Shown here: positions 9,882-36,748 of the stretch, piece by piece
How positions within the stretch are numbered: the first letter of the stretch is position 1
Layout of the letters: each line of letters starts with the position of its first letter
Assembly (NCBI GenBank): GCA_900474095.1
Contig: UCOA01000011.1
Span: 1 to 64,000 of the forward strand
DNA from: Hyphomicrobiales bacterium
GTDB taxonomy: Bacteria > Pseudomonadota > Alphaproteobacteria > Rhizobiales > Rhizobiaceae
Length of the DNA stretch: 64,000 nucleotides
Reading direction: 5' to 3'
Translations under genes and position numbers: made by a program
The notes under the pieces: model-generated
Databases searched by the model: none
Seen by the model: the letters and a program-made list of their open reading frames with translations, nothing else
What the model was told of the DNA's origin: nothing

Positions 9882-9903
9882 GACGCTCTCCCTCGTGGGG
9901 CCG

Positions 9904-11748: not shown

Positions 11749-11838
11749 AGCCGCCGAAATTGGAGGATACCGGAATGCCGCCGTTTGGGATTATCTGGGG
11801 ACCAACAGTTTGGTCCTGAACACGAGAGGAGTAACAAA

Positions 11839-13951: not shown

Positions 13952-13985
13952 AATTCACGCCCGTCAACAGGCAATATTTACGTTT

Positions 13986-15434: not shown

Positions 15435-15510
15435 TTCCGGTGTCCCTTTCAAGCCAATCCGCTGGCTGGGTTTTTTGGTAGAAGCCCTGCGGCGCCTGCC
15501 GAATGCATCT

Positions 15511-16431: not shown

Positions 16432-16522
16432 TGGCTTGTCGTCGTCCGTCGTGTCGATGAGGAGCCACGCTATCGGCGCGCCGTTTTCCGGGCAATGCAA
16501 ACTGGCGACGCGCGGTAGAGAG

Positions 16523-17404: not shown

Positions 17405-17435
17405 CTTCGTCCTCCCGGGTGAGCGCTGGACGCGT

Positions 17436-18179: not shown

Positions 18180-18266
18180 CGTGCCCTCCCAATTTGTTCC
18201 TCCACTCAAAATTCCATTTCTAGCAACAAATGAGAACCTTCGAATTCTGCTAACCTACCATGACCT

Positions 18267-18281
18267 ATAGCTTCTAGTTAT
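18267..18281. promoter_or_regulatory. LysR-type box (SDR operon / MmgE-PrpD divergent promoter)
   Basis: ATAGC-TTCTA-GTTAT: one mismatch to ATAAC-N5-GTTAT, with the T-N11-A spacing kept. A further GGTTATAG half-site lies at 18313-18320, about 37 bp away, the kind of spacing seen between recognition and activation sites of LysR-type regulators. It lies between starts 18179 and 18400. Confidence 0.6.
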
Positions 18282-18399
18282 ATGCCTCAGGTTCAAAGTC
18301 CTTGTCGGATTAGGTTATAGATGCGGGGCGGCGTTCGACGTGCGATGGCTGCGGCTTAAGGTGGCCGTCGGCAGGACGTCTACATGGAGGAAAGCCACG

Positions 18400-19800
18400 A
18401 TGCCCAGCGAACCCGATCTCGTGCACGTATTTGCCCAGCACGCCGCGGATCTCTCGTATGACAATCTTACGGCCGCCGCGTGCGAAGCGGCCAAGAAAAG
18501 CATTCTCGATACCCTGGGCGTCATTCTCGCGGCGAGCGGAATGGAGCCCGCGGTCCGGGGCGTAGTCGAAATCGTCAATGAAAGTGGCGGTAAGCCGGAA
18601 TGTTCGGTTATAGGGTTCGGCGGTCGTCGCCCGGCGATCATGGCGGCTCTCGCCAACGGAGCGATGGCGCACTGCTTGGACTATGACGATCAAACACCTT
18701 GGGGACAGCACACAGCAAGTTCGATCGTGCCTGCCGCGTTCGCGGTCGCCGAACGCCAGGGCGGTGTTTCCGGCAAGGATCTGATTGCCGCTGTTGCCAC
18801 TGGTCAGGACATCTTTGGACGACTGAGATGCAATGTGGATTGGAAAAAAGACTGGAACCTCTCGACGGTGCTCGCTGTATTCGCCGCGACGGCTTCCGCG
18901 GGCCGCACGATGGGACAGCCATCCAGGCAAATCGCCAACGCAATGGGCATCGCCACCATGCAATGCAGCGGCATCATGGAGATGGTGGCGGGACGCGGTA
19001 GCGATCTCAGAGGCATGTACGCCGGGTTTTCTGCCAAGGGCGCCGTCTTGGCGACCTTGATGGCGGACAAGGGCATCACAGGCATCGACCAAATGTTCGA
19101 AGGGCAATATGGCTTCATGAACACCTACTTCGGCGGCGGCTACGATCGCGAAGCAATCGTCCACGATCTAGGGCGGGAGTTTCTCGGAAGTGGAACGCTT
19201 TACAAGCGTTGGCCCTGCGTTGGTACGGCGCATAGCCATATGAAAGCGGCGATCGACATCGTCACGAACAACAATCTGCACCCAGACCAGATCGCGGAGA
19301 TCAGGCTTCATGTTGGCGATTACCACGACTTGATGTGCCAACCTCTCGATGAGAGACGTAGCCCGGCGACATTGGCGGATGCGAAGTTCAGCCTGCCTTT
19401 TCTTGTTTCTGTTGCGATCGCCCGACGGGGAATGAGCGTCTCCGATTTTTCCGAAGGGGGCCTTCGTGACAGAGTGGTGCTCGAGACCGCGAGCAAGATA
19501 AGCCTTGTGAGAGACCCAGCGCTGAATTGGAAACTCGAACTCCCGCCCGGTCGAGTCGAGATTCTTACCCATGACGGCAGCCGTTGGTTGGAGGAAGGCC
19601 GAAGCGTTCCGGGCAATGCCGACAATCCCATGGACTGGGACGACCTCTGCTCGAAATTCAGGGAATGCGCGGCGGCCTCGGTCACCGCAATGGCGGACGA
19701 CGTCGTGACACGGGTAGCGGACCTCGCCCGTCGACTCGAGGAGCTCCCCGATGCAACTGAACTTGTGAAACTTCTCTCTCCGCCAGAACACCAGGCGTAA
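18400..19800 (+). CDS. MmgE/PrpD family protein
   Basis: A 466-residue protein of the 2-methylcitrate dehydratase/cis-aconitate decarboxylase/iminodisuccinate epimerase family. It shows the D-Y-D-D motif at about 89-92, the G-H-A-x-D-Y-D-D equivalent (here A-H-C-L-D-Y-D-D), and an all-helical first domain followed by a small lid domain. The family dehydrates or decarboxylates hydroxy-acids. No prpB/prpC genes are nearby, so methylcitrate is unlikely to be the substrate; it might be the missing dehydratase of a sugar-acid route. ATG 18400 has GGAGG nine bases upstream; the frame is open further up without a ribosome site. Confidence 0.88.
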   Translation: MPSEPDLVHVFAQHAADLSYDNLTAAACEAAKKSILDTLGVILAASGMEPAVRGVVEIVNESGGKPECSVIGFGGRRPAIMAALANGAMAHCLDYDDQTPWGQHTASSIVPAAFAVAERQGGVSGKDLIAAVATGQDIFGRLRCNVDWKKDWNLSTVLAVFAATASAGRTMGQPSRQIANAMGIATMQCSGIMEMVAGRGSDLRGMYAGFSAKGAVLATLMADKGITGIDQMFEGQYGFMNTYFGGGYDREAIVHDLGREFLGSGTLYKRWPCVGTAHSHMKAAIDIVTNNNLHPDQIAEIRLHVGDYHDLMCQPLDERRSPATLADAKFSLPFLVSVAIARRGMSVSDFSEGGLRDRVVLETASKISLVRDPALNWKLELPPGRVEILTHDGSRWLEEGRSVPGNADNPMDWDDLCSKFRECAAASVTAMADDVVTRVADLARRLEELPDATELVKLLSPPEHQA

Positions 19801-19822
19801 CCTGCGGCTGGAATACGCCTGG
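19791..19822 (+). terminator. Hairpin overlapping the MmgE/PrpD stop codon
   Basis: CCAGGCGTA (19791-19799) pairs perfectly with TACGCCTGG (19814-19822) around 14 bases. The stop codon lies at the base of the first arm. No T-run follows, so it may stabilise the mRNA end or cause Rho-assisted stopping. Confidence 0.45.
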
Positions 19823-20143
19823 GGCTCCATACAGGCGTCCGGTGGCGCTCAGTGAGAACGCCTTTCTATTTGAAGCCATCGACCGCGGAGAAAGGGCGAA
19901 AGATTGCGTGGACGGGTGTATCCGAAGGCCAGTAGTCTGCCTCAGCAGCTTTCCCGCCGCGAAGTCGCGGTTTCAGGCGTCCCCCGCTGTATCCGTACTG
20001 ATCGCTTTCATGAAGAATAGCGACCGGTTTCATCGTTTGCTAAGGTGGGGCGTTCGCACATGCTCATGGTACGAAACGAGTGGGCACCGTGCGGTCAGCG
20101 CACTAGAATACCGGATAGTCTGATGCTCAGATTTGCCCTACAA
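19801..20143. other. Intergenic region between convergent genes
   Basis: About 340 bp between the ends of the MmgE/PrpD gene and the SDR gene of the importer operon. A 93-codon plus-strand frame shows no recognisable family or ribosome site. Apart from the hairpin at its start I see nothing. Confidence 0.4.
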
Positions 20144-20920
20144 TCAAATGCCAGCGGTCTGCCCCCCGTCGATGACCATCGCGTGGCCTGTGACGAAGCC
20201 CCCCGCGTCTGAGCAAAGCCAGAGGACCGTGCCTGCAATTTCTTCCGGCCGTCCCATTCGGCCGACAGGCTCTTGCGCGATAATGCGGGCCCGGCCTTCG
20301 TCGGTATCCCCCGTGTACCGAGCGATCATCGGGGTGTCGATGATTCCCGGGCAAATGGCGTTCACCCTAATGTTCTTGTCCGCGTATTCGAGGGCGGCGA
20401 CCTTGCTCGCGGCCACGACACCGAACTTCGAGGCACAATAGCTGGACTGCCCGCGGATCGCCAGGACACCCGCGCCGGACGCGGTGTTGACGATCGCCCC
20501 GCCGCCTTGGCGCAACATGATTTCGATCTCGTATTTCATGCAGAGGAAAACGCTTTTCAGGTTCACGGCGATGGTCCTGTCCCAGACTTCCTCGGACAAG
20601 TCGGCGATCGATTGCGCGGGCTGTTCGATGCCCGCGTTGTTGAACGCGACGTCCAAGCGGCCGAACTTTTCCACGGTCTTGTCAAGAGCGGCCTTTACGT
20701 CAGAACTCTTGGCCACGTCGCAGATGACCGACAAAACCCTTCCACCCATTCCCTCGATCTCAGTGACCGTCTCCTTCAAGCCTTTCTCGGAAATGTCAGC
20801 GGCCGTCACAGCCGCGCCCGCCTTGGCAAACGCGATTGCCGCGGCGCGACCGATACCGCTTCCCGCTCCAGTGACAAACGCGATTTTGCCGTTGAAATCC
20901 ACCTTGGGTATGTCAGTCAT
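20144..20920 (-). CDS. SDR family oxidoreductase of the sugar ABC operon
   Basis: A 258-residue classical SDR with T-G-A-G-S-G-I-G at 17-24, N-N-A-G at about 94, Y-C-A-S-K at about 160 and P-G at about 190. Last gene of the operon binding protein - ATPase - permease - SDR (90 bp after the permease), so it probably oxidises the imported sugar or polyol at the first step. Its glucose/galactose/polyol preference cannot be told from the sequence. Confidence 0.93.
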   Translation of the reverse strand: MTDIPKVDFNGKIAFVTGAGSGIGRAAAIAFAKAGAAVTAADISEKGLKETVTEIEGMGGRVLSVICDVAKSSDVKAALDKTVEKFGRLDVAFNNAGIEQPAQSIADLSEEVWDRTIAVNLKSVFLCMKYEIEIMLRQGGGAIVNTASGAGVLAIRGQSSYCASKFGVVAASKVAALEYADKNIRVNAICPGIIDTPMIARYTGDTDEGRARIIAQEPVGRMGRPEEIAGTVLWLCSDAGGFVTGHAMVIDGGQTAGI

Positions 20921-21010
20921 TTTCGTTTTTCCGTTTCTTTTTGTCCACGACGACAGGGGCCGCGCGGCTGATGAAGCCCATTTCGCGGCGACAGAACTGG
21001 CCTTTGGTTT

Positions 21011-22225
21011 TCAGCCGCCTGTCCTGGACTTGGTCTTCGAGCCGCCGACGGTGTAGATTGCCGCCGCAGTTACGACAACAACGCCTTCAATCAACCCCTG
21101 CCAGTTTGCGCCCAGGTTCAGGATGTTGAAGCCATTGGTGAGAGAATACAGCAGCAGTGCGCCAGCGAGTGTCTTGATAACGCTACCCGCGCCGCCGAAC
21201 AGCGAAGTACCACCGAGGATCGCAGCCGCAATGACCGTGAGTTCCGCTCCTTGAAGGCCTGCGGGGTTTATCGACCTCAGACGGCTGGCGAACAGAATTC
21301 CGGCAAGCCCGGCGGCGCCGCTACAGAAGACGAAAGCCATCAATTTGTAACGGGTCACGCTGATGCCGGAGAGCCGCGCCGCCTCGGAATTGCCACCGAC
21401 CGCATAGACGCGACGGCCGACCATCGTAAAAGTCAGGGTAAACCAGACTATTGCGGTGAAGATGGCCATGTAGATGACAGGATTGCGGAGGATCAGTTCC
21501 CCGCCAGAAGCCCAGGACACCAATAGGAAGAAGATGCCGATCACCACCATCGCCAATACCGCGGGCCGGAGACGCTTCCCGGCCATTCGGGTCTGGAAGG
21601 CACGAAAAGCGCCGAACGCGAGAAGCGCAGCCCCTGCCGCTAGTACCAACCAGAAAACATCGTGACGGCCGCCTTCAAACGCCTTCATGGTCGCGATCAC
21701 CGCCGGGTCGGATGCGGAAAGCGAGCGCCCGTCGGTGTAGATCAAAACAAGTCCGCGAACTGCCGTCATAGTCCCGAGGGTAACGATGAAGGCGTTGATT
21801 CCGACGAACTGCACGATGGCGCCGTTCAGGAGGCCGATGCTCATAGCCACGACCATCGCAAGGCCTGCAGCGGGCCAGAAACCTATCGCATCGGCATTGC
21901 CGATTAGCATAACCGCGGAGAGCGCGGCGACGGAGGCCACTGACAGGTCGAAATTGCCACTGATGAGAACGACAGTCATGGCCACCGCCATGATCGCGAT
22001 CAGCGACGACTGATAGACGACATTCGACAGGTTTTGTACGCTCAGGTAGTTGGATTGACCCAGATAGGTGGTGATAACCGTCAACGCGACGATGAGGAGC
22101 AAGAGGGCGTAGTAGACCCCCATCTCCTGCATGCCGAACATGCGCTTCCAGTTCGTCTTGGGCACGGAGGTGCCCTGAGCAACCGCTGCCTTCGGTGTTA
22201 CATGATTTTCAGTTACTATGGTCAT
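21011..22225 (-). CDS. Sugar ABC transporter permease (CUT2, XylH-like)
   Basis: A 404-residue permease, longer than RbsC (about 320) and like XylH. After a polar N-terminus of about 30 residues come about ten to twelve membrane segments, with the family block G-N-F-D-L-S-V at about 90-96, G-T-M-T-A-V-R-G in the middle, and A-A-I-L-G-G-T-S-L-F-G-G near the end. It forms the channel for the sugar bound by the protein at 23840-24805. It lies 30 bp behind the ATPase gene; no strong ribosome site. Confidence 0.95.
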   Translation of the reverse strand: MTIVTENHVTPKAAVAQGTSVPKTNWKRMFGMQEMGVYYALLLLIVALTVITTYLGQSNYLSVQNLSNVVYQSSLIAIMAVAMTVVLISGNFDLSVASVAALSAVMLIGNADAIGFWPAAGLAMVVAMSIGLLNGAIVQFVGINAFIVTLGTMTAVRGLVLIYTDGRSLSASDPAVIATMKAFEGGRHDVFWLVLAAGAALLAFGAFRAFQTRMAGKRLRPAVLAMVVIGIFFLLVSWASGGELILRNPVIYMAIFTAIVWFTLTFTMVGRRVYAVGGNSEAARLSGISVTRYKLMAFVFCSGAAGLAGILFASRLRSINPAGLQGAELTVIAAAILGGTSLFGGAGSVIKTLAGALLLYSLTNGFNILNLGANWQGLIEGVVVVTAAAIYTVGGSKTKSRTGG

Positions 22226-22255
22226 GTTCTAATCTCGCTTTGAGAGGCTCGCCAT

Positions 22256-23794
22256 TCAATGGCGCGCGGCTTCGGGCGCTGCGCTCTGGCCTCCGGCCAG
22301 CAGGAGCAATTCGTGCTCTGAAGTGTCGTGAACGTTGCGTTCCGCGATGCATTGGCCGTCGCGCATCACGAGGATGCGGTCGGAAACCGCGATCAGTTCC
22401 TCGAATTCCGATGACACGACTATGACCGACATGCCTTGGCTAGCCAGTTGCCGGACCAACCGGAGGATATCCGTCTTGGCTCCGATATCGATGCCCGCGG
22501 TCGGTTCGTCCAAGAGGAACAGCTTGACGTCGCTGAAAAGCCACTTGGCTATCGTTACCTTCTGGGCGTTGCCACCGCTCAGTTCCTTCACAAGGATTTC
22601 CGGAGAACTGGCTTTGATCGACAGCATGCGGATTGCCTCCCATCCGCGTTCCCGCTCACGCTCGCCCACCGGAAGCGCGTTCATCACGGACACGCTTCCG
22701 AGAGCGGGCAAGGTGGTGTTCTTCCAGATTTCGAAATCGGGCACCAAACCCTGCGCCATTCGATCCTCCGGTACCATTCCGATGCCGGCCCTCACCGCCG
22801 CGCCCGTGTCGCGAGCGACGCGTTTGCCGTCAAGAAGGACCTCTCCCGTGGCGTTCGTGTCGGAGCCGAATATTGCGTGCAGCAGTTCGCTGCGGCCTGA
22901 TCCCAGGAGCCCGGCGACGCCCACCACCTCTCCCCGCGCGACCCTCATCGAGAGCTTCTGCAGCCTGCCCTTTGAGGCGAGATCCCGCAATTCGAGACGT
23001 GGAACCTGCTCGGTAGCAGAGTCTGGCAGAGGCGTGCGATTCTCCGCCTGTCTCTCAAGAGCAACGATTTGTTTGCCGACGATCGCCTCGGCTATGCGAT
23101 TTTCATCCAGATCGCAGGTGTTGGCACGAAGTACTGCGACACCGTCGCGCAAAACGGTGACCTGATCGGTAAGAGCCATCACTTCATCAAGAAAGTGCGA
23201 CACAAAAAGAATCGCCTTCTGCTCGCCTTTGGACAGCTTTCTCACGGTTTCATAGACCAGCTCGCGCTCTTCCGATGCAAGCGAAGCGGTCGGCTCGTCC
23301 ATGACAATCAGGTCGGCACCGGTGCCCAGCGCCTGGAAAATGGACACCATCTGGCGTTCGCCGATGGACAATGAGCCTACGAGCGTGTCCGGATCCAACC
23401 TGTATCCGACGCGTTCGCAGAGTTCGTTGAATTTGCTCCGGATAGATAAAGAACGTCTCCAAGGACCAGTGTTTCCGAGGAAGACGTTCTCGAGGATCGA
23501 CAGAGTCGGGACCAGCGGAATATGCTGGTGGACCGTCGCGACACCCATATCATTTGCGGCTTTGGGATTATCCCACTGCACGGGCTGACCGCGCCAGATG
23601 ATTTCACCTAAGGTCGCCCAGTAGGCACCGGACAGAATCCGGATCAAGGTTGATTTTCCAGCGCCATTGGCCCCGAGCAAGCCGTGGACCTTGCCCCGCT
23701 CGATGTCGAGATCGACACCGCGCAGGGCCAGCGTTCCGTTGGGAAACCCCTTCACGATACCGCGCAACTGCATGATTGGAGTGTTGTCTTGCAT
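22256..23794 (-). CDS. Sugar ABC transporter ATP-binding protein (CUT2, two domains)
   Basis: A 512-residue protein with two ATPase domains. The first has Walker A G-A-N-G-A-G-K-S-T at 41-49, a signature L-S-I-G-E-R-Q and Walker B L-I-V-M-D-E-P-T. The second has the degenerate Walker A G-L-L-G-S-G-R-S usual for RbsA/XylG, L-S-G-G-N-A-Q-K and L-F-L-L-D-E-P-T-A-G-I-D. It drives import with the neighbouring permease; 45 bp separate it from the binding-protein gene. Confidence 0.95.
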   Translation of the reverse strand: MQDNTPIMQLRGIVKGFPNGTLALRGVDLDIERGKVHGLLGANGAGKSTLIRILSGAYWATLGEIIWRGQPVQWDNPKAANDMGVATVHQHIPLVPTLSILENVFLGNTGPWRRSLSIRSKFNELCERVGYRLDPDTLVGSLSIGERQMVSIFQALGTGADLIVMDEPTASLASEERELVYETVRKLSKGEQKAILFVSHFLDEVMALTDQVTVLRDGVAVLRANTCDLDENRIAEAIVGKQIVALERQAENRTPLPDSATEQVPRLELRDLASKGRLQKLSMRVARGEVVGVAGLLGSGRSELLHAIFGSDTNATGEVLLDGKRVARDTGAAVRAGIGMVPEDRMAQGLVPDFEIWKNTTLPALGSVSVMNALPVGERERERGWEAIRMLSIKASSPEILVKELSGGNAQKVTIAKWLFSDVKLFLLDEPTAGIDIGAKTDILRLVRQLASQGMSVIVVSSEFEELIAVSDRILVMRDGQCIAERNVHDTSEHELLLLAGGQSAAPEAARH

Positions 23795-23839
23795 CAGTTG
23801 AGGCTTCCCACTCTGTTTGCTATCAACGAAGGAAAGTTA

Positions 23840-24805
23840 TCACCACTGCTCGGGGCAGTCGTCGATCTTTTCCTTAGTGATCTGCGGCATGTCGTAGGTC
23901 ACGAACCGACCCTTGGGCGTTTCGGGATTCGTTGCGGCTTCGTGCATGGCCTTGAACATAAGCTCGCCCAGCAACTGTGGACGCGTGCACACCGAGCCGT
24001 GCATTTCTCCAGCCAGGATCGCGTCGTGACCCAACTTCGAACCACCGCCAGTCGCGATGAGCTTACCCTTCCAGCTCGCCGCCTCGATCGCCCGCGCGCA
24101 GCCGATTGCCATGTCATCAGCGTGGCTGAAGATCAGGTCAATATCCGGGTGGGCAGTCAGGAAGTTCTGGCATACCGCTTCACCTTCGTCGGGCGTCCAG
24201 TTGGTGGGCTGTTCGGCTACTATCTCGTAATTTGCGCCGGCCTTGTCGAGAGCTGCCTTGAACCCATCGGTGTCGAGCTTGACGATTGTGTAGGCCGGAT
24301 CACCCATTACGATCGCGATCTTGGCTTTCTTGTCTTTCGGGAGGAGGCTTGCGGCCATCTCGCCGGAAACGTAGCCAGCCTGATAATTGTCGGTGGCGAC
24401 CAGCGCTGACAGACCCGGATAGGGATCACTCAGTTTGCGCGTCGCGGAGTCGCCCACCTGCAGGGCGATGGCTACGACCGGGATGCCGGCGTCGTTGACC
24501 TTGTCGACGAAAGATTCAGCGACCACCGAGTCGAGCGGCAGGAATCCGATAGCGTCCACCTTTTGGGACAGCAGGTCATCAAGGGCGTTGCCTTGCTTTT
24601 CGACACTGCCACGCGGATCGAGGACGACGGTTTTGACTCCTGCCTTTTTGGCAGCTTCCTCGAAGCCCTTGGCTGTCATCACGTTGTATGGGTACTCAAG
24701 ACTTGCAGGTACGTAGCCGAAGGTCAGATCCTTTGCGGCAGCCGTTCCGGCGCAAAGAAGCGCAGCGACAGCAGCCACGCCGAATTTCAGTTTATTTCCG
24801 CCCAT
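23840..24805 (-). CDS. Sugar ABC transporter substrate-binding protein
   Basis: A 321-residue periplasmic binding protein with a signal peptide cut near A-A-A at about 24. It is closely similar to the orphan at 2506-3474 and to the remnant at 26757-27035. All three share the region around A-T-G-G-G-S, the A-G-E-M segment, S-V-C-T (or S-I-C) and the C-terminal E/A-x-W end. The ATG has GGGAGGA five bases upstream. First gene of the importer operon. Two LysR-type boxes lie in the 690-bp region upstream. Confidence 0.95.
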   Translation of the reverse strand: MGGNKLKFGVAAVAALLCAGTAAAKDLTFGYVPASLEYPYNVMTAKGFEEAAKKAGVKTVVLDPRGSVEKQGNALDDLLSQKVDAIGFLPLDSVVAESFVDKVNDAGIPVVAIALQVGDSATRKLSDPYPGLSALVATDNYQAGYVSGEMAASLLPKDKKAKIAIVMGDPAYTIVKLDTDGFKAALDKAGANYEIVAEQPTNWTPDEGEAVCQNFLTAHPDIDLIFSHADDMAIGCARAIEAASWKGKLIATGGGSKLGHDAILAGEMHGSVCTRPQLLGELMFKAMHEAATNPETPKGRFVTYDMPQITKEKIDDCPEQW

Positions 24806-25219
24806 GAGTTCCTCCCTGGAGCAAGTTCTGCAACGTGCCGGTATGCGTTTGGCTGTTCGGTTTCGGCACTGTGAAACCGGGCCGTTTGTCGCCGCGCAGA
24901 TCTCGAAGCAATCTATATTTATCGACGGCAGCCGCTCCGACCGACAACAAGGAGGGATTCACCGCATGGTTGAGCCAATACTTGTCGCGGTACCGATGAA
25001 GCAACGCTACTTCGAAATATGACAATTCTCTGGATCTGCTGAATATCGGGGTCCTCCGCTCCTCCGACAGACCCAATTGATCCTCGGTTTGCAACTCGAT
25101 CAGGACGGCAATTTCTGTTGAACTCAGATTTATACCGAAGGGTCGACTTGCACTCCTCCTGTGCAGGATTTTTCTAACATGCTGCAATTTTGCAAGACAG
25201 AGGTCCCGGTGCCCGGGTT

Positions 25220-25234
25220 ATAACATCAGCTTAT
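25220..25234. promoter_or_regulatory. LysR-type box 1 of the ABC/alcohol dehydrogenase region
   Basis: ATAAC-ATCAG-CTTAT: one mismatch in the right half, T-N11-A kept. The flank reads GGGTT on the left and GCC on the right. Confidence 0.55.
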
Positions 25235-25351
25235 GCCGACACGCCGCGCGCAGGTCCATGTCGGTCAGGGTCAAGACCAGAAGCCCTTTTGCGGTAGAGC
25301 GTTGTCGACTGGTCTGAGCCAACAGATCCCCTCGCATCGACGAATGGGCAT

Positions 25352-25366
25352 ATAACATCAAGCTAT
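25352..25366. promoter_or_regulatory. LysR-type box 2 of the ABC/alcohol dehydrogenase region
   Basis: ATAAC-ATCAA-GCTAT: one mismatch in the right half, T-N11-A kept. GGCATA (25347-25352) and TATGCC (25364-25369) extend the symmetry. It lies 134 bp upstream of the alcohol dehydrogenase ATG. Confidence 0.6.
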
Positions 25367-25499
25367 GCCATAACTCGGCGATCAGGACAGAAGCGACGAA
25401 AACGGTTGTCTCAGGAATTCAGATTTGCGACCCAGCTTGATAACAGCGCCGCTCACGTGACGTCGGCGCTAACTGAAATCGATGTTGGAGGTCGAAACG

Positions 25500-26522
25500 A
25501 TGAGAGGGGTTGTTTTCCTCGGCGAAGGCAAAATGGAGCTTCGCGATTTTCCCGACCCTGTACCTGGGCCAGACGAGGTCGTTATCCGGGTGAAGGCTTC
25601 GGGAATGTGCGGAAGTGACTTAAACCACCTCCACGAGCCGAAGCGAACCGAAGACCAGATTGTCATCGAGGGGCATGAGCCATGCGGCGTCGTCGAGATG
25701 GTGGGTTCGGCTGTAAGGCCTCATGAAGCAAAAGTCGGCGACCGCGTGATGATCCACCATTATGACGGCTGCCGCACCTGCTCCAATTGTCGTTCCGGCT
25801 GGACGCAGAACTGCGACAGAGGGCGGATTGCGTTCGGTGGCAATGGCCACGGAAGCCACGCTGACTTTATGAAAGCCCCCGTCCACACAGTGATCAAGCT
25901 GCCCGACGAGCTCTCTTTCAAGGCGGGTGCGGCCATCGGCTGTGGTAGCGGAACGGCCTATGGAGCTTTGAAGCGCATTAACCTCCTTGCCGAAGAGACC
26001 ATCGCCATCTTCGGTCAAGGCCCTGTCGGATTGAGCTGCACCCTGTTCGCGAAGGCCTTCGGCGCGCGGGTCATCGCGCTCGACCCGGGCGAGGAACGCC
26101 TCGCAATGGCCAAAAAATTCGGCGCTGACTTCCTCGTCAATCCATTGAAAGACAACCCCGTCCAAGCCATCAAGGACCTGACCCGCGGTTTCGGCGCCGA
26201 TAAGGCGGTCGAATGCAGTTCGAACCCGGTCGCGCGCGAGCAGGCGGTCAACTGCGTCTGCCAATGGGGCACCACTTGCCTGGTCGGCGTCCACGGGAGC
26301 ATGCAGTTCGACTGCAACGAGGTCATCACGAAGCAAAAGACGCTCGTAGGTTCGCTGACGTTTAGCAAAAACCAGCAAGACGAATGCGCCCAGTTCGTCA
26401 CGGAACGAGGCATTGATGTCGATTCCCTGTTCACGCATGAATTCAAGCTTGAGGACGCCGTGGAGGCATATACCCTTTTCGAGCAGAGGAAAATCGGCAA
26501 AGGCGTTTTCGTATTCGACTAG
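25500..26522 (+). CDS. Zinc-dependent alcohol dehydrogenase (MDR family)
   Basis: A 340-residue medium-chain dehydrogenase. Catalytic-zinc ligands are Cys37 and His59-Glu60 (G-H-E); the structural-zinc cysteines are Cys91, Cys94, Cys97 and Cys105; a Rossmann turn G-x-G-x-V-G occurs near 175. It resembles the threonine/sorbitol/galactitol dehydrogenase group, which oxidises secondary hydroxyls of polyols. ATG 25500 is behind GGAGG at eight bases. Divergent from the sugar ABC operon and probably co-regulated with it, it may oxidise a polyol or sugar brought in by that importer. Confidence 0.93.
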   Translation: MRGVVFLGEGKMELRDFPDPVPGPDEVVIRVKASGMCGSDLNHLHEPKRTEDQIVIEGHEPCGVVEMVGSAVRPHEAKVGDRVMIHHYDGCRTCSNCRSGWTQNCDRGRIAFGGNGHGSHADFMKAPVHTVIKLPDELSFKAGAAIGCGSGTAYGALKRINLLAEETIAIFGQGPVGLSCTLFAKAFGARVIALDPGEERLAMAKKFGADFLVNPLKDNPVQAIKDLTRGFGADKAVECSSNPVAREQAVNCVCQWGTTCLVGVHGSMQFDCNEVITKQKTLVGSLTFSKNQQDECAQFVTERGIDVDSLFTHEFKLEDAVEAYTLFEQRKIGKGVFVFD

Positions 26523-27035: not shown

Positions 27036-27275
27036 AAAGTCAGCCACGGTTGCGCGGCGCGAAATCGCTTGGTTTCACGCCGGCGGTCATAGCCGGCCCG
27101 TTCACATTTGCACTGGCGGCCAAGATGTTTGACGTTCGGGAAGATGTTTGACCGGGGCAGTATCGGCTATTTCTTTGCATCAACGCGCCGACCTATTTCG
27201 CTCTTGCGGCGCAAATGCTTGGGCAGACCGAGAATGATTCCGGGACCCGGCCTGGTGAATTGGGAGAAAGTTGGC

Positions 27276-29033
27276 GTGAACATTGTCAGCAATATTGCAG
27301 CCAACGAGGCTGAGCTCGCCGCGAGGTGGTTGACGTCATTCGAAGCTGCGCTCGAAGCTAGAGATGCCAAAGCACTTGGCCAGCATTTCGCGGACGATTG
27401 CCATTGGCGAGATATCCTCGCTTTCACATGGAACATCACGCCTCACCAATTAAGGCAGCCGATCGTCGAAGGCATTCTCAAGGCGCAGCCGGATGTGCGG
27501 GCGAAAAACTTCAAGCTGGCGGAAGAGCGCACCCCACCCCGCCGCGTGACCCGTATCGGCGTGGAATCGATCGAAGCGATCTTCACATTCGAGACAGAGG
27601 TCGGGCGCGGCCACGGCTTTCTACGGCTGCTCGCCGACGCGCCGGAAACGGCGTGGGCATTGATGACATCGCTCGATGAATTCAAAGGTCATGAGGAACC
27701 AATCGGTGATCGGCGGCCAAGCGGCTCTTCCTATTCGAGAACTTTCGGCGGCGACAACTGGAGCGACCTGCGTGCGAAGGAGCAAGCGTTCGCAGACCGC
27801 GAACCCGCCGTACTGATCATCGGCGCGGGCCAGGGTGGGTTGAGCATAGCCGCCAGACTGAGACTGCTGGGTGTGGATACCCTGGTCGTGGATAAGACGC
27901 CGCGGGTCGGCGACGTCTGGCGCAAGCGTTATCATTCGCTGGCGCTCCACAATCAGGTGAAACTCAACCACCTACCCTATTTGCCCTGGCCGTCAAGCTG
28001 GCCAAAGTACCTGCCGAAGGACATGATCGCCAATTGGCTGGAAAACTACGCCTGGTCCATGGAGTGCAACGTCTGGACTGAAACGACCTTCGTCGAAGGG
28101 TCTTTCGACGACCAAACTGGCCACTGGAATGCCAAGGTGCGGAGGGCGGACGGATCGGAACGGGTCCTGAGGCCGAGACACATCGTCTTTGCCAACGGCG
28201 TGGCGGGCCGCCCGCTGAAACCGTCGGTCCCGGGTCTGGACTCCTTCAAGGGCGCGGTCATACATACACATGATTTCACGAGCGGCGAGGATTGGCGCGG
28301 AAAACGCGTGCTGGTTCTCGGCGCGGGCACGAGCGGCCATGACGTGGCACAGGATCTCCACGGCCACGGCGCGCAGGTGACCCTGGTCCAACGAGGACCT
28401 GCCACTGTCACAAGCGTGACTGCCGCAGGGCTTGTCCATTCCGTCTATTATAGCGAAGGTTTGCCCGTCGAAGACTGCGACCTGATTGCCGCGACCAGCA
28501 CCTACCCGCTGCTCATCCGCAGCTATCAGGCAGCCGTCGCGAAGATCAAGGAAATCGACCGCGACCTTCTTGCCGGCTTGCAGGCAAGGGGTTTCAAGCT
28601 GGATTTCGGGGAGGATGAAACCGGACACCAGATGAAGTTCCGTCGCCGCCACGGTGGCTACTATCTCGACTGCGGATGCTCGGAGTTGATCATCAATGGC
28701 GAGATCGACCTCATGCAGTGGGAAGAGATCGACCAGTTCGTCGAGGAAGGCGTGAAACTTGCCAACGGACAGGTGAACAAGGTCGACCTCGTCGTGACCG
28801 CCACCGGTTATCAGAGCCAGCAGGATCTCATCCGTGAGCTTTTGGGTTCGGAGACCGCGGACAAAATCGGGCCGATCTGGGGTATCGCCCCCGATGGGGA
28901 ACTCGCCAACATGTTCCGGCCCACGCCTCAGCGGGGCCTTTGGTTTACCGGAGGCGGTTTCGCGCACGCGCGCATCTACTCCAAATACATCGCCCTGCAG
29001 ATCAAAGCGCGCGAAATGGGATTGTTGAGCTGA
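27276..29033 (+). CDS. Flavin-containing monooxygenase with NTF2-like N-terminal domain
   Basis: About 585 residues. The first about 150 residues look like an NTF2/SnoaL-like alpha+beta barrel (A-A-R-W-L, H-F-A-D-D-C-H-W-R-D). From about 180 follows a class B flavoprotein monooxygenase: the FAD turn G-A-G-Q-G-G at about 183-188, the fingerprint F-K-G-A-V-I-H-T-H-D-F at about 322, the NADPH turn G-A-G-T-S-G at about 349 and T-A-T-G-Y near the end. The family inserts oxygen in Baeyer-Villiger fashion or hydroxylates heteroatoms. Start GTG 27276 is chosen for GGGAG nine bases upstream; ATG 27234 is an alternative. It is the first gene of a five-gene plus-strand operon and overlaps the next gene by one base. 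Confidence 0.88.
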   Translation: MNIVSNIAANEAELAARWLTSFEAALEARDAKALGQHFADDCHWRDILAFTWNITPHQLRQPIVEGILKAQPDVRAKNFKLAEERTPPRRVTRIGVESIEAIFTFETEVGRGHGFLRLLADAPETAWALMTSLDEFKGHEEPIGDRRPSGSSYSRTFGGDNWSDLRAKEQAFADREPAVLIIGAGQGGLSIAARLRLLGVDTLVVDKTPRVGDVWRKRYHSLALHNQVKLNHLPYLPWPSSWPKYLPKDMIANWLENYAWSMECNVWTETTFVEGSFDDQTGHWNAKVRRADGSERVLRPRHIVFANGVAGRPLKPSVPGLDSFKGAVIHTHDFTSGEDWRGKRVLVLGAGTSGHDVAQDLHGHGAQVTLVQRGPATVTSVTAAGLVHSVYYSEGLPVEDCDLIAATSTYPLLIRSYQAAVAKIKEIDRDLLAGLQARGFKLDFGEDETGHQMKFRRRHGGYYLDCGCSELIINGEIDLMQWEEIDQFVEEGVKLANGQVNKVDLVVTATGYQSQQDLIRELLGSETADKIGPIWGIAPDGELANMFRPTPQRGLWFTGGGFAHARIYSKYIALQIKAREMGLLS

Positions 29034-29863
29034 TGCCACTCGATTTCCATGGCAAGGTGGCTTTTGTAACGGGTGCCGGATCGATCGGCGAAGGCTGGGG
29101 CAACGGAAAGGCGACCGCCGTGCTTCTGGCCCGTCAGGGTGCGAAGGTATTCGGCACCGACATAAACCCTGAAGCGCTGACCGATACCGGATCGGCGATG
29201 GCGCGGGAGAACCTCAGCGGGCATTGGTCGTCCTGCCAATGCGACGCGACCAGCGGCAAGAGCGTCGAGGCTGCGGTGGCGCGATGCGATCGCGAACTAG
29301 GCCGTATTGACATCCTGGTCAACAACGTGGGTGGCAGCGCTCCGGGCGACCCGATCACGATGAGCGAGGAGTTGTGGGAGAAGCAGATCGCTCTCAATCT
29401 CGACAGTGTTTTCCTGAATTGCAAGCATGTCCTCCCCGTCATGCTCCGCCAGTTCGAAGAGGGCGGGAGCGGCGGCGCGATCGTCAACATCGGCAGCGTG
29501 GGGTCGATGACATTTCAGATGGGCGGTCGCGTTAGCGCCGCATACGCGGCCTCGAAGGCGGCGGTCGAGGCCTTTTCCCGCTCTACCGCGATCGCGTTTG
29601 CGAAGAAGGGCATAAGGGTGAACACGGTGATCCCCGGTTCCATGCACACTCCGCTCGTCGAGAACAGGCTAGCTCGCCAGCTTGGCAAGGACGACCTCGC
29701 CAAGCTCATCGCTGAGAGGAATGCGAGCGTGCCTATGGGTCGCATGGGAGACGCATGGGACGTGGCCAACGCGGTAATGTTTCTCGCCAGCGACGAGGCC
29801 CGTTACATCACCGCCACACAACTGGTCGTAGATGGCGGACTGACCGCGGCGCGCCCGGCATGA
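29033..29863 (+). CDS. SDR family oxidoreductase (monooxygenase operon)
   Basis: A 276-residue SDR whose cofactor turn is T-G-A-G-S-I-G-E-G-W-G at about 13-23, longer than the classical form and like that of the divergent/enoyl-reductase-type SDRs. N-N-V-G at about 98 and Y-A-A-S-K at about 171 are present. The ATG shares its A with the preceding TGA, so translation is coupled to the monooxygenase gene. It would supply or remove the ketone handled by the monooxygenase. Confidence 0.92.
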   Translation: MPLDFHGKVAFVTGAGSIGEGWGNGKATAVLLARQGAKVFGTDINPEALTDTGSAMARENLSGHWSSCQCDATSGKSVEAAVARCDRELGRIDILVNNVGGSAPGDPITMSEELWEKQIALNLDSVFLNCKHVLPVMLRQFEEGGSGGAIVNIGSVGSMTFQMGGRVSAAYAASKAAVEAFSRSTAIAFAKKGIRVNTVIPGSMHTPLVENRLARQLGKDDLAKLIAERNASVPMGRMGDAWDVANAVMFLASDEARYITATQLVVDGGLTAARPA

Positions 29864-29900
29864 CTTCCGGACAACCTATGTTCCGAGAGCGGAGGAAAAA

Positions 29901-30773
29901 TTGAGCCGACCAGTTATCATCACTTGCGCTGTTACCGGTTCGGGAGACACCACCGCGGCAAGTCCCTATGTGCCCATCACGCCCGGACAGATCGCCAACG
30001 AAGCTCTCAGTGCGCACGCAGCGGGCGCTGCCATCGTGCACATACATGTTCGCGATCTCGAAACGGGCAAACCCAGTCGCGACATCCGCCTCTATCGGGA
30101 CGTCGTTGGACGCATCCGGCAATCGGGAGCCGATGTCGTGATTAATCTGACGACGGGTGTGGGAGCACGTTTCACACCCGCCGAAGACGATCCGAACCGT
30201 AACGCGGTTTCAGGTCTCGCCTCCCCCGAGGAGCGTATGGAGCACGTGCTCGAGCTGCGGCCGGAGATATGCAGTCTGGACGTGGCAACCATGAACTTCG
30301 GCGCCCACGCGTTCGTCAACGTTCCCGAACACATCGAGCGTATCGCGCGAGCCGTCCGTGCAGCCAACGTCAAACCTGAACTCGAGGTCTTCGATCTCGG
30401 CCATTGCGCGCTTGCTGGACACCTGTTCAAGCAGGGAATATTCGCCGAACCTGCCATGTACCAGCTTTGCCTGGGCATTCCGTGGGGGGCTCCCGCAACC
30501 ACGGAGGCAATGTTGTCCATGAAGCAGATGGTCCCGGCCGGAAGCAACTGGAGCGCGTTTGGCATCGCCGCGAAAGAGTTCCACATGGTCGCGCAGTCGG
30601 TTATCCTCGGGGGGCATGTACGCGTTGGGCTCGAAGACAACCTTTTTCTTTCCCGTGGCGAGTTATCGCCGGGAAACGCCCCATTGGTCGAACGCGCCGC
30701 GAGGATCGTCAAGGAACTTGGGGCCGAGGTCGCCACGGCTTCGCAGGCTCGCGAAATATTGCGGCTTGGTTGA
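29901..30773 (+). CDS. Beta-keto acid cleavage enzyme family (BKACE, DUF849)
   Basis: A 290-residue zinc-dependent TIM barrel. The metal histidines are His47 and His49 in H-I-H-V-R-D, and the C-A-V-T-G turn stands at the N-terminus, as in the family. BKACE enzymes react a beta-keto acid with acetyl-CoA to give acetoacetate and a new CoA ester; the founding member is 3-keto-5-aminohexanoate cleavage enzyme. The start is TTG at 29901-29903, because GGAGGAAAAA precedes it directly and no ATG is near. It lies 37 bp after the SDR gene. It implies a beta-keto acid intermediate in this operon. Confidence 0.92.
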   Translation: MSRPVIITCAVTGSGDTTAASPYVPITPGQIANEALSAHAAGAAIVHIHVRDLETGKPSRDIRLYRDVVGRIRQSGADVVINLTTGVGARFTPAEDDPNRNAVSGLASPEERMEHVLELRPEICSLDVATMNFGAHAFVNVPEHIERIARAVRAANVKPELEVFDLGHCALAGHLFKQGIFAEPAMYQLCLGIPWGAPATTEAMLSMKQMVPAGSNWSAFGIAAKEFHMVAQSVILGGHVRVGLEDNLFLSRGELSPGNAPLVERAARIVKELGAEVATASQAREILRLG

Positions 30774-30793
30774 ACTAATTGACAGGAGCATCC

Positions 30794-31375
30794 ATGCCTC
30801 GCCTCGAAACGTTGTCGAATGACGAGATGACCGCGGCGCAGTCCGAAGTGAGCGCGGAAGCGATCGCCGGAAAGCGGGGACGCGTGCCTGCTCCGATGAT
30901 CGCATGGCTCAGAAATCCGGAACTCGCGCGCAGGGCACAGCGGCTCGGCGAGCTTCTCAGGTACGACACCACACTTCATCCGCGTCTGTCGGAACTGGCG
31001 GTCCTCGTGTGCGGCAGGCATTGGACCTCCCATCACGAATGGACGGCACACAAACGGCTCGCGTTGGACGCCGGGCTGAACCCGCAGGTCATCGCCGACG
31101 TTGCCGCTCGCCGGCGCCCCGAGACGGCCGACGACGAGGAGCGCCTCGTACACGATATCGCGTTGTGCCTCCTCTCCACGGGTCGAATTCCCCGCGCGCT
31201 TTACGATCAAGGCATTCACCGCCTGGGGGAACGAGGTATGGTCGAGCTCGTGGCGATCATCGGCTACTACTGCTTGGTATCGGTGACCCTCAATGCATTC
31301 GAACTAGGAATCCCGGGGTCGATCGCGACGGAACTCGACGATCCCGACTTCTCCTCGCCGGAGGCCGCTCGTTGA
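30794..31375 (+). CDS. Carboxymuconolactone decarboxylase family protein
   Basis: A 193-residue helical protein of the CMD/AhpD superfamily: L-R-L-x-E-L-A-type helix (L-H-P-R-L-S-E-L-A-V-L-V) followed by C-G-R-H-W-T-S-H-H-E-W, in which only one cysteine remains, so it is not an AhpD-type thiol peroxidase. Relatives in catabolic operons are thought to decarboxylate or hydrate cyclic intermediates, mostly unproven. ATG 30794 follows CAGGAG. Its last codon overlaps the TTG start of the next gene. Confidence 0.85.
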   Translation: MPRLETLSNDEMTAAQSEVSAEAIAGKRGRVPAPMIAWLRNPELARRAQRLGELLRYDTTLHPRLSELAVLVCGRHWTSHHEWTAHKRLALDAGLNPQVIADVAARRRPETADDEERLVHDIALCLLSTGRIPRALYDQGIHRLGERGMVELVAIIGYYCLVSVTLNAFELGIPGSIATELDDPDFSSPEAAR

Positions 31376-32415
31376 GCCGGGCGCATCCAGACTTCCATTT
31401 GAAAGACGAGGAGCCGATCGATTCCGGCCTTCCGATCGTCGATGCCCACCATCACCTCTATGAAAGACCAAACCTTCGCTATCTGTTCAACGAGTTCAAA
31501 GCAGATCTCGCAAGCGGACACAACGTCGTGGCGACGGTGTTCGTCCAAGCCCGCGCGATGTACCGCGATGGGGGTCCGGAAGCCATGCGCCCTGTCGGTG
31601 AAACCGAGTTCGCTAAAGGCGTTGCGGACGCGTGCACGGCCGATCCCGAATGCCAAACGCGGGTTTGCGCGGGAATTGTCTGCCACGCCGATCTGATGTT
31701 GGGCGAAAGCGTCGAAGAGGTTCTCAGGGAGCACGGCCGCGCGGCCGGCGGCATTGGTTCGGGAAATCTGCGGGGTCTTCGACACATCGCCGCCTGGGAT
31801 CCCGACCAGGGAATGTTAAACAGCGCCTATCCGACATTTCCGGACATGCTGGAGGACGCCCGTTTCCGAGCCGGGTTCTCTATGCTCGCGAAATACGGCC
31901 TCCGATTTGACGCCTGGCTTTACTACCACCAAATCGACCGGCTGACGGCTTTGGCGAGGTCGTTTCCGCATATTCCGATCGTCGTTGATCACTGTGGAGG
32001 CGTCTTGGGCATCAGGGGCTATGCGGGTCGCCAAGCAGAAGTTTTCGCCCAGTGGTCCAAGGCATTACGCGAACTGGCAACTTGCGACAATGTCGCAATC
32101 AAGCTCGGTGGTCTCGGAATGCCGATCTCTGGTCTCCCCCTTGCGGAAGTGGGAAGGGGGCCGGGCTCCGTTGAACTGTGCACGGCCTGGCGACCATGGA
32201 TGGAGACGTGCATCGAGATTTTCGGAACTCAACGATGCATGTTCGAGAGCAACTATCCAGCCGACCGGGCGAGCCACACCTATGGCACCGGTTGGAACGC
32301 GATGAAGCGGCTGGCGGCAGCGGCAAGCGCGACAGAAAGGGACGATCTCTTCTGGCGCACCGCCGCAAGATTCTACCGACTGGAGACGTCCGCTCAGGCG
32401 GGACGCTCGTCATGA
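31372..32415 (+). CDS. Amidohydrolase family protein (PDC-lactonase-like)
   Basis: A 347-residue amidohydrolase-2-type TIM barrel. The metal motif H-x-H is His26/His28 (V-D-A-H-H-H-L), with V-D-H-C-G-G in the middle and the C-terminal F-E-S-N-Y-P. Such enzymes hydrolyse lactones (2-pyrone-4,6-dicarboxylate lactonase type) or decarboxylate ring acids. The start is TTG at 31372, overlapping the previous stop (TTGA) and preceded by GGAGG; earlier codons of the open frame lie over the CMD gene and are not part of it. Hydrolysis of a lactone made by the monooxygenase fits the operon order. The 3' end overlaps the convergent LysR gene by 22 bp. Confidence 0.88.
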   Translation: MSRAHPDFHLKDEEPIDSGLPIVDAHHHLYERPNLRYLFNEFKADLASGHNVVATVFVQARAMYRDGGPEAMRPVGETEFAKGVADACTADPECQTRVCAGIVCHADLMLGESVEEVLREHGRAAGGIGSGNLRGLRHIAAWDPDQGMLNSAYPTFPDMLEDARFRAGFSMLAKYGLRFDAWLYYHQIDRLTALARSFPHIPIVVDHCGGVLGIRGYAGRQAEVFAQWSKALRELATCDNVAIKLGGLGMPISGLPLAEVGRGPGSVELCTAWRPWMETCIEIFGTQRCMFESNYPADRASHTYGTGWNAMKRLAAAASATERDDLFWRTAARFYRLETSAQAGRSS

Positions 32416-33308
32416 TGACGGAACAAGGCTACCAGGAAATCCACAAAGGCCCGCGTCTTCGGAGAAACTTTCCGGCTGCTCGGGTAAACCGCGTAAAGGG
32501 CGGTGTCGAACTCGGTAGGACTTACCTCGTGGTCCGTCAGGAGAGGTATGAGATCTCCCTTTCTAACGGCTTCCCGGACCGTCGACTCCTGCATGATGAC
32601 CAAGCCAAGACCGCTCATTGCGCTGGTGAACAGTGCAGCGCCGCTGTCCGTCTCGAGGTTGCCCGAAACCGGAATCTCTACCGTGGTCGCGTCCCTGGTG
32701 AATCGCCAGCGGTTGTCGTAATTCTTCGCCCGGTAGACAAGGCAGTTGTGTTTCACGAGGTCTTGCGGGATTGTGGGATAGCCGTTCGTTTCCAAATATG
32801 CCGGACTGCCGCAGAGAACACGGCGACTCGGGCTCAGGCGCCGCGCTATCAAACTTGAGTCCTCGAGACTGCCGAGCCACACCGCGACGTCTATCCCGAG
32901 CGCGACGAGGTCCGCCCGCTCGTCCGTAAGAGTGACATCAATCATGACTTCCTGGTTCTCGGCGAGAAAGTCCTTGAGCGCCGGAACAATTATCTCGTTT
33001 CCGACGGAAATCCTGAGGTGAACACGCAGCCGTCCTTTGACTGTTTTCTGGTAGCCACTGACTTCACGTTTCACGTCATCAATCTGGCGGATGAGTTCAG
33101 TCAGCTTCTGATAATACAGGGTGCCGACTTCCGTGAGGGATTGCCGTCGGGTCGTACGGTTAAGCAGCCGGACTCCCAACGTCGTCTCGAGGCGATTGAT
33201 CTGCCGTGCGACGGAGGTCACAGATGTGTTAAGATGCCGGGCAGCGGCCGAAAAGCTGCCGTTCTCGACAACAAGAACGAACGCCCGATCCAACTTGAGT
33301 TCGTCCAC
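32394..33308 (-). CDS. LysR-family transcriptional regulator (distinct subgroup)
   Basis: About 304 residues with an N-terminal helix-turn-helix (G-S-F-S-A-A-A-R-H-L, V-A-R-Q-I-N-R-L-E) and a substrate-binding domain with the V-D-V-A-V-W-L-G pattern. It belongs to the CrgA/DsdC-like group and is not close to the three other LysR proteins here. I prefer GTG 33306-33308, behind GGGGGAAG, which gives the usual N-terminus; the frame continues 19 codons upstream. It is convergent with the monooxygenase operon and upstream-adjacent to the 33.4-36.6 kb operon on the same strand, so either could be its target. Confidence 0.9.
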   Translation of the reverse strand: MDELKLDRAFVLVVENGSFSAAARHLNTSVTSVARQINRLETTLGVRLLNRTTRRQSLTEVGTLYYQKLTELIRQIDDVKREVSGYQKTVKGRLRVHLRISVGNEIIVPALKDFLAENQEVMIDVTLTDERADLVALGIDVAVWLGSLEDSSLIARRLSPSRRVLCGSPAYLETNGYPTIPQDLVKHNCLVYRAKNYDNRWRFTRDATTVEIPVSGNLETDSGAALFTSAMSGLGLVIMQESTVREAVRKGDLIPLLTDHEVSPTEFDTALYAVYPSSRKVSPKTRAFVDFLVALFRHHDERPA

Positions 33309-33464
33309 TGCTTCCCCCACCCGGTTCCCCTTCTTGTCGTCGAGGAAATGCCTGAACGCAAGCACCGCCGCTACGTGGTCGCCAAACTAGCGAAATGCTG
33401 TAACGCGCACAACGCGGATACAGCACCCCTCGAAATTCCCTGAGTTGCTCGGTTTACCTTAGCG

Positions 33465-35565: not shown

Positions 35566-36561
35566 TTACGTTTCCGCGTCTCCGCGCCGCATCCGCTGCA
35601 ACGCCTCGTAAATCGCCTCGTCGACTTCGATTGTACCTGCTTTTTGAGCTTCCCTGCGCTTGATGGCGCTGGACCTGCCAGGAACTCGCACCTTGGAAAC
35701 GCCGGTCGCGGGTCGCGAAGCCTCGATCTGTTCCACCAGCTTCGTCACCGACAACCGGAACCGGTCGAGCGGCATTAACAGCTCAGGATTGATAACGAGG
35801 AAGAAGAACCCGCAATCGGACACTTCTTCCACGATCGTGGCGCTTCCGCAGAGGATACCGAGAACTTGGACGACAAGGGAAAGTCCGTATCCGCGATGGC
35901 CGCCCCACGGCATGAAGGCGCCCTCGAGGGCGCTTGTCGGGTCGATCGTGGGATGGCCGTGCGGATCGACAGCCACGCCGGGTTCCAGCGGCTGCCCAAG
36001 CTTTTGCCGCAACAAGACGTCTCCCCACGTTGTCATGCCGGTACCGAAATCCACGACCAGTGGATCCGGCTCTGCAGGAAAGGCGAAGGCAATAGGATTG
36101 GTGCCGAAAATCCTGTCGATGCCGCCGGACGGAGCAACCCTCGCCATCGTGTTCGCGGTGTGCATCGCTATGAAGCCTTTGCGAGCGGCACGCTCGACAT
36201 AATACGCGAGCCGACCGCTGAACCATGTATCGGAAATGCCTACAATGCCCACGCCGTTTTGGGTCGCCAGCTCTATGGCCTTGTCGATTCCGACCAAAGA
36301 CGTGACATAGCCGTTGGTCCCTCCTCCGTCGACAACCGCCGAGTTCGGGGACTTCGCGGTCACGACGATCTGTTTTGCGGGGGGCCTGTTTTTCAGGTTT
36401 TCGACGAGTGCCAGGATCCGCGGCAGGCCTGCGAATGCATGCCCGGCCGCGGCTGCGTCTACCAGGTGATCCGCGACGATCTTGGCATGTTTTCCGTCCA
36501 CGCCATGTTTGATCAAAACGTCGGTCGCCAACGCGTGGGCGTCTGAAAACGTGACTTGCAT
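35566..36561 (-). CDS. Ldh family (malate/L-sulfolactate/ureidoglycolate dehydrogenase type) oxidoreductase, altered active site
   Basis: A 331-residue protein of the type 2 malate/lactate dehydrogenase family (NAD(P)-binding, not Rossmann). Family blocks are present: N-P-I-A-F-A-F-P, V-V-D-F-G-T-G-M-T-T-W-G, and G-G-H-R-G-Y-G-L-S-L. The conserved N-terminal S-H-G motif, whose histidine is catalytic, reads F-A-G here (residues 43-45 in G-H-A-F-A-G-L-P-R). The enzyme may therefore be inactive, use His41 instead, or do other chemistry. ATG 36559-36561 is chosen, with GGGAGG nine bases upstream. First gene of a four-gene minus-strand operon, divergent from the acyl-CoA dehydrogenase gene. Confidence 0.85.
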   Translation of the reverse strand: MQVTFSDAHALATDVLIKHGVDGKHAKIVADHLVDAAAAGHAFAGLPRILALVENLKNRPPAKQIVVTAKSPNSAVVDGGGTNGYVTSLVGIDKAIELATQNGVGIVGISDTWFSGRLAYYVERAARKGFIAMHTANTMARVAPSGGIDRIFGTNPIAFAFPAEPDPLVVDFGTGMTTWGDVLLRQKLGQPLEPGVAVDPHGHPTIDPTSALEGAFMPWGGHRGYGLSLVVQVLGILCGSATIVEEVSDCGFFFLVINPELLMPLDRFRLSVTKLVEQIEASRPATGVSKVRVPGRSSAIKRREAQKAGTIEVDEAIYEALQRMRRGDAET

Positions 36562-36748
36562 GTTCGATATGCCTCCCAATCGAGGGCTAACTTACTTTGA
36601 ACCAGGGCGCAGCATTTACATCGATATTCGTTCACGATCTTCACGCAAAACGCAAAGATGCACTCCTTCCCCATCCTTGTCTTCGTCCCCATAATAAGCG
36701 GCAGATACGGCAATCGCACGCGGAAGCGGCGGATCGGGAGGAAAGAAC

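Follow-up and report, generated by a model that had tools for sequence, protein, structure and literature searches.

We report that five consecutive genes of a Hyphomicrobiales bacterium (Rhizobiaceae; GenBank assembly GCA_900474095.1, contig UCOA01000011.1, of which positions 1 to 64,000 were analysed as one stretch of 64,000 nucleotides, hereafter the window) make up a genuine recurrent operon of known families. As the initial annotation of this DNA had supposed for this set of genes, no description was found in the literature searched, subscription papers lying mostly outside the reach of that search. As judged by sequence comparison, the recurrent core of the operon consists of a type II (SnoaL-type) flavin monooxygenase (FMO), an SDR oxidoreductase, a CMD-like protein and a hydrolase-like protein of the cog3618 fold. 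The best explanation of the whole, to which we give an even chance, would be a mobile catabolic operon combining oxygen insertion, hydrolysis and a variable C–C cleavage, entrusted here to a beta-keto acid cleavage enzyme (BKACE). The five genes are as follows:

27276–29033, + strand: flavin monooxygenase, type II, with a SnoaL-type N-terminal region and a FAD/NAD(P)H monooxygenase domain; GTG start; Pfam FMO-like and Pyr_redox_3.
29033–29863, + strand: SDR oxidoreductase; ATG start; PF13561 (adh_short_C2), 194 bits.
29901–30773, + strand: BKACE; TTG start; PF05853, 329 bits.
30794–31375, + strand: CMD-like protein; ATG start; PF02627 at 21.2 bits (cutoff 23).
31372–32415, + strand: amidohydrolase of the Amidohydro_2/cog3618 fold; TTG start; PF04909, 112 bits (cutoff 26.4).

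All five had been named, within 27276–32415, by the initial annotation, and an open reading frame (ORF) and Pfam check found them there together with the TGATG and TTGA overlaps and the two TTG starts that it had described. Indeed, the SDR start lies inside TGATG, with a 1-base overlap with the FMO gene, and the amidohydrolase start overlaps the end of the CMD-like gene via TTGA.

The same five-gene neighbourhood, whose search elsewhere had been proposed as a check, was found in identical order in Mesorhizobium sp. STM 4661 (84–94% identity, by an amidohydrolase search of the genome contigs) and on plasmid pENH92 of Cupriavidus necator NH9 (FMO 67%, SDR 70%, BKACE 67%, CMD-like protein 64% and hydrolase 57%). 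Because the order recurs both at 84–94% and at 57–70% identity, it is not owing to chance, and this sharing among unrelated soil bacteria and plasmids supports the prediction that the genes form a single unit. STM 4661 carries a near copy of the whole region, as 11 of 12 genes tested were retrieved there at 84–95%; the acyl-CoA dehydrogenase of the window was not found in that region among these 12.

Eight loci examined in full have an FMO at least 58% identical to that of the window: the window itself, L001, L113 (genome G029, of the same family as the window), L159, L160, L161, L163 and L183 (genome G638, of the same class). The FMO–SDR–CMD–hydrolase core is complete in all eight. FMO relatives at 58–90% adjoin the same partner genes; an SDR relative (66–89%) directly follows the FMO in each of the seven other loci, all of which also hold a CMD-like relative (52–91%). 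The core genes recur in Variovorax, Rhizobium leguminosarum, G029 and G638, usually with a related LysR gene, whose product is 48–52% identical at the Cupriavidus, Variovorax, R. leguminosarum and G638 modules and 90% identical in STM 4661; no LysR relative was found at L113 or L162. The plasmid collection yielded 11 records whose FMO reaches at least 58%, and each of them has the CMD gene, 0.9–2.1 kb downstream, distances being read from match coordinates and four of the records inspected gene by gene. The arrangement of Sphingobium EP60837 is rearranged, with an FMO (51%), a PEP_mutase-family gene, an SDR (a 59% relative, one gene further from the FMO), a hydrolase and a divergent CMD-family protein.

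Two irregularities deserve mention in their own right. The FMO match is split in two in three plasmid records of R. leguminosarum, with no annotated gene beneath (L161, 14001–15730), and the FMO of these records may be broken. In Variovorax WDL1, a fragment 68% identical to the acyl-CoA dehydrogenase of the window directly precedes the FMO, on the other strand (L159, 13473–13745), and is likely a remnant.

The module marks the closest FMO group only, since its partner genes were not seen in the flanks retrieved around more distant FMOs. Indeed, no relative of the module SDR, CMD-like protein or amidohydrolase was found in the retrieved flanks of FMOs at 46–50% (L176–L182 and L187); that of L164 (46%) showed no module partners, only weaker SDR and aldehyde dehydrogenase matches, and the loci L124–L128 (41–42%) showed at most SDR-type matches at 28–35% and acyl-CoA dehydrogenase matches at 31–33%. 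The possibility, raised initially as an argument against a single unit, that the genes belong to separate neighbourhoods elsewhere is borne out for the wider amidohydrolase family and not for the close orthologues. In that wider family, the retrieved flank, short at some loci, shows neither a BKACE nor a CMD relative at 57 of 58 loci, L001 being the only exception, and three of the four FMO matches at such loci reach just 22–23% identity. These 58 neighbourhoods, several with short flanks, were also considered as a clue to the substrate and revealed none.

The operon is patchily distributed. In a survey of the family (297 genomes), an FMO at 58% or more was detected only in the window's own genome and in G029, STM 4661 having been drawn from another collection, and SnoaL-type FMOs are broadly common (104 of the 297 genomes at E ≤ 1e-60). 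In these family searches and in those of the phylum, three to four FMO candidates were scored per genome, so that some may have been missed; in the genus, every candidate was scored. Among the 26 genomes of the window's genus, only its own has the FMO, three others having 40% paralogues, and G029 alone passes E 1e-160 among the 120 genomes of its genus. On pENH92, two IS5 transposase genes with one shared protein accession, WP_078194641.1, bracket the module together with the LysR gene, a TctC-type binding protein and an Ldh gene (NZ_CP017759.1, 35840–48398), in a composite-transposon-like layout; a third IS5 copy stands further on, at 51585–52559. Taken together, the patchy distribution, the plasmids and the insertion sequence flanks suggest mobility, and the operon is probably an accessory, mobile catabolic unit, usually with its LysR gene.

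The enzyme expected to cleave C–C bonds varies between copies. The BKACE of the window is full-length (residues 4–289 on profile positions 1–274 of 274; 329 bits against a cutoff of 24.8) and closest by sequence to PDB entries 9ZSC and 3C6C, and it scores under each of the four NCBIfam cutoffs listed for it. It thus matches the BKACE/Kce family (PF05853) over its full length and differs in being an accessory of the module: it is present in three of the eight module loci, namely the window, STM 4661 (94%) and pENH92 (67%), which weakens the view that BKACE defines the last step. Next to the hydrolase, the operons of G029 and R. leguminosarum go on to encode a thiolase (PF22691, as assigned for the L113 copy) and a ChsH2-type zinc-ribbon/OB protein, and the Sphingobium operon holds its PEP_mutase-family gene inside. 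In G638, an acetoacetate-decarboxylase (ADC)-family gene lies approximately 4 kb downstream of the module. In Variovorax WDL1, the BKACE position, between SDR and CMD, is taken by a short Ldh_2-like fragment (51 residues, under the Pfam cutoff); a citryl-CoA lyase and a protein with a thiolase domain (66% to the thiolase of G029) stand 6–7 kb downstream. We infer from these gene contents that one beta-keto-acid-consuming step may be replaced by others between copies, more convincingly for G029, R. leguminosarum and Sphingobium, where the genes are adjacent, than for Variovorax and G638. That the last enzyme changes from copy to copy points to a beta-keto acid, or the CoA ester of one, as the intermediate. 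In deoxyribonate catabolism, too, an alternation of BKACE and thiolase has been proposed (PMC6365646).

The FMO has a single full-length relative in PDB, 8ACS (JsFMO), aligned over residues 13–583 at 402.7 bits, the next match being at 87.5. FAD-domain matches begin near residue 178, in agreement with the SnoaL-type N-terminal extension (approximately 160 residues before the monooxygenase domain), and the Pfam scan listed no SnoaL match for it. The residues His-216, Tyr-458 and Arg-571 of JsFMO align to H225, Y462 and R566, the 16-residue offset between the 8ACS chain and the numbering of the paper having been counted by hand, and these columns are 100% conserved in 48 homologues. In this alignment and these three residues, the protein resembles the SnoaL-type FMOs (JsFMO, FMO-E/F/G of R. 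jostii, PsFMO A–C); it differs from JsFMO in its second nucleotide motif (GxGxxG against GxNxxA) and in sitting in a recurrent operon. Type I Baeyer–Villiger monooxygenases bear the fingerprint FxGxxxHxxxW(P/D); here the sequence reads FKGAVIHTHDF, with F in place of W, and a type I identity was rejected. Hence, the ‘class B monooxygenase’ of the initial annotation is retained as a type II SnoaL-type FMO, on the strength of the 8ACS match, and not as a type I enzyme. According to the JsFMO paper (PMC10028610), that enzyme belongs to the type II FMOs and has demonstrated Baeyer–Villiger activity: it converts norcamphor, derivatives of cyclobutanone and some linear ketones of medium length, acts on sulfides as well, though poorly, and does not convert cyclopentanone or cyclohexanone (section 2.4); PsFMO A–C are said there to take cyclohexanone-type ketones and camphor. 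A cyclic alcohol or ketone as substrate class is thus a guess.

The amidohydrolase, in an AlphaFold2 model (pLDDT 92), displays the cog3618 TIM-barrel fold, with 4DLF as best PDB match (Z 32.4, rmsd 2.4, 272 residues), Z values of approximately 23 with LigI structures and approximately 20 with decarboxylases. Residues D24, H26, H28, H207 and E292-S293-N294 are invariant in 45 of 45 aligned relatives; of the 79 sequences in a wider set, 74 read FESN[YF], three read GSNF and two fall outside this pattern. The L-fucono-1,5-lactonase model NF052480 scores 61.7 bits against a cutoff of 400. The CMD-like protein misses the gathering score of PF02627, and 16 of the 22 members of its alignment, the window included, match CMD at E ≤ 0.01; its family profile retrieved nothing from PDB at E ≤ 0.01. 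A single-sequence structure model of this protein (pLDDT 41) was not used.

These assignments are consistent with a pathway in which the FMO would insert oxygen beside a carbonyl group, the hydrolase-like protein would open the resulting ester or lactone, the SDR would oxidise a hydroxyl, before or after this opening, and BKACE would cut a beta-keto acid with acetyl-CoA to yield acetoacetate and an acyl-CoA. Several observations weigh against it. Among the matches listed, at most 25 each for the FMO and the SDR, none of the five proteins reaches an NCBIfam equivalog cutoff, so that their exact function is not assignable. JsFMO Asp-217 is N226 in the FMO; its authors call this Asp possibly marginal in catalysis (PMC10028610). 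BKACE was not found in the retrieved stretches of five of the eight module loci, and the ADC-family gene of G638 (approx. 4 kb away) and the thiolase of Variovorax (approx. 7 kb) may reflect coincidence. The core proteins and LysR show correlated pairwise identities (r 0.82–0.94, with no control genes alongside), and these values drop to 0.48–0.87 among the four core genes and 0.22–0.58 with LysR when two close pairs are left out; as these pairs carry much of the correlation, the co-inheritance signal is weaker than first seen. Lastly, N294 of the amidohydrolase aligns with an Asp of the solved lactonase 4DLF, which reads GSD where the window protein reads ESN; we take this Asp to be the catalytic one of lactonases, at strand 8.

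This last substitution bears directly on the ‘PDC-lactonase-like amidohydrolase’ proposed initially, of which the fold stands and the lactonase activity does not follow: because Asn replaces the aligned Asp, in 45 of 45 relatives, the lactonase step is not transferable by homology from LigI, for which PDB titles show D248A and D248N mutants in complexes. However, another solved cog3618 member, 6UVZ, also has Asn at this position, which weakens the argument and leaves it suggestive only. Compared with the cog3618 lactonases (4DLF, the PDC hydrolase LigI), the protein thus shares the fold and differs by Asn-294 and by a Glu two residues earlier, E292, a candidate substitute acid. From the literature on LigI and cog3618, passages of one paper on riboflavin catabolism were consulted, and these showed no link with the operon.

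Other explanations have to be weighed. By analogy, deoxyribonate catabolism is the closest described logic in the available passages of PMC6365646, which describe a lactonase, an SDR and BKACE in one putative operon of Pseudomonas simiae and propose a thiolase route in Klebsiella beside the BKACE route. The hydrolase would then open a sugar lactone, the SDR produce a 3-keto acid and BKACE cleave it, the FMO serving a side step or another substrate. The window's genes for a sugar-type ABC transporter, an SMP-30 lactonase, SDRs and aldehyde dehydrogenase have relatives within approximately 50 kb of the G029 module, in line with such a route. However, the likeness to the clusters of P. simiae and K. 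michiganensis is drawn at the level of gene families, no flavin monooxygenase or CMD-like gene is mentioned for them in these passages, and the FMO and SDR are kept at loci where BKACE was not found, so that the FMO looks more central than BKACE; we therefore regard this route as rather unlikely. The exact scheme of the initial annotation, namely oxidation of a cyclic alcohol by the SDR, conversion to a lactone by the FMO, opening by the amidohydrolase and cleavage of a beta-keto acid by BKACE, is unlikely. Its enzyme families and shared gene order hold, and its activities are plausible for the Pfam families; its lactonase step and its centring on BKACE are the weakest parts. Indeed, it leaves the CMD-like protein without a role, the hydrolase has Asn in place of the catalytic Asp, and JsFMO, the closest solved relative of the FMO, is inactive on cyclopentanone and cyclohexanone (PMC10028610). 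Finally, an FMO oxidising sulfur or nitrogen, or turning an acyclic ketone into an ester, in an operon that detoxifies or uses such a compound, would agree with the sulfides and linear ketones taken by JsFMO according to the same paper and is quite unlikely, as partners of the BKACE, thiolase/OB and ADC families are better suited to beta-keto acid chemistry, the ester variant being still compatible.

Around the operon, three further features were recorded:

27100–27275, + strand: conserved non-coding leader of the operon, with a direct repeat inside; conserved in STM 4661.
32394–33365, − strand: LysR-type regulator, convergent (PF03466/PF00126).
35566–36579, − strand: Ldh_2-family dehydrogenase, possible outer module member, with a relative near the pENH92 module and an Ldh_2-like fragment inside that of Variovorax WDL1.

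The mechanical ORF of the FMO gene opens earlier, at TTG 27108. The position aligned to GTG 27276 is an ATG in STM 4661, and indels 5′ of it in this alignment are not multiples of three; for both reasons, GTG 27276 is taken as the start. The leader contains a direct repeat, AAGATGTTTGAC, at 27122–27133 and 27141–27152 (19-base period), a candidate regulator site whose second copy is less well conserved in STM 4661. A sigma-70 scan found no promoter-like site in the leader, 1.7 being expected in shuffles. The LysR gene shares 22 bases at its 3′ end with the amidohydrolase gene, on the opposite strand. The Ldh_2-family gene, which has a 50% relative approximately 3 kb from the module in pENH92, is a possible outer member of the module.

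Upstream, window genes at 8427–26522 (approx. 18 kb) have relatives at 69–88% within the same 50 kb or so of the G029 module, and comprise, besides the sugar-type ABC transporter, SMP-30 lactonase, SDRs and aldehyde dehydrogenases, an MmgE/PrpD-type protein and an alcohol dehydrogenase. A second SDR (SDR2, 69%) and a 3-hydroxyisobutyrate-dehydrogenase-type gene (49%) also have relatives there, and part of these island relatives occur in R. leguminosarum. This shared gene content points to a wider catabolic island of rhizobia, serving oxygenated compounds, and the genes nearby are a hint that the substrate is oxygenated and possibly acidic or derived from a sugar. Elsewhere in the window, two related pairs of SDR and HpcH-type aldolase genes, each on the same strand, were noticed at 9904–11605 and 39991–41654, and a glycine riboswitch aptamer (RF00504, 69.4 bits) at 60121–60209 on the − strand, just upstream of the ORF at 58745–60094 (−).

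As regards the mobile catabolic operon that we prefer, it is possible, though on balance doubtful, that it encodes a so far undescribed aerobic pathway in which a SnoaL-type FMO would have a dedicated physiological role, next to an Asp-less cog3618 enzyme, its acid displaced by two residues on the barrel strand, and a CMD-like enzyme with a new function, and which would deliver a beta-keto acid to interchangeable BKACE, thiolase/OB, PEP-mutase-type or ADC-type enzymes. In any case, the operon provides a shared and testable context for three orphan groups, the SnoaL-type FMOs, the ESN-type cog3618 proteins and the CMD-like proteins, and its named variant carriers, Cupriavidus NH9, Variovorax WDL1 and R. 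leguminosarum, make a search for the substrate practical.

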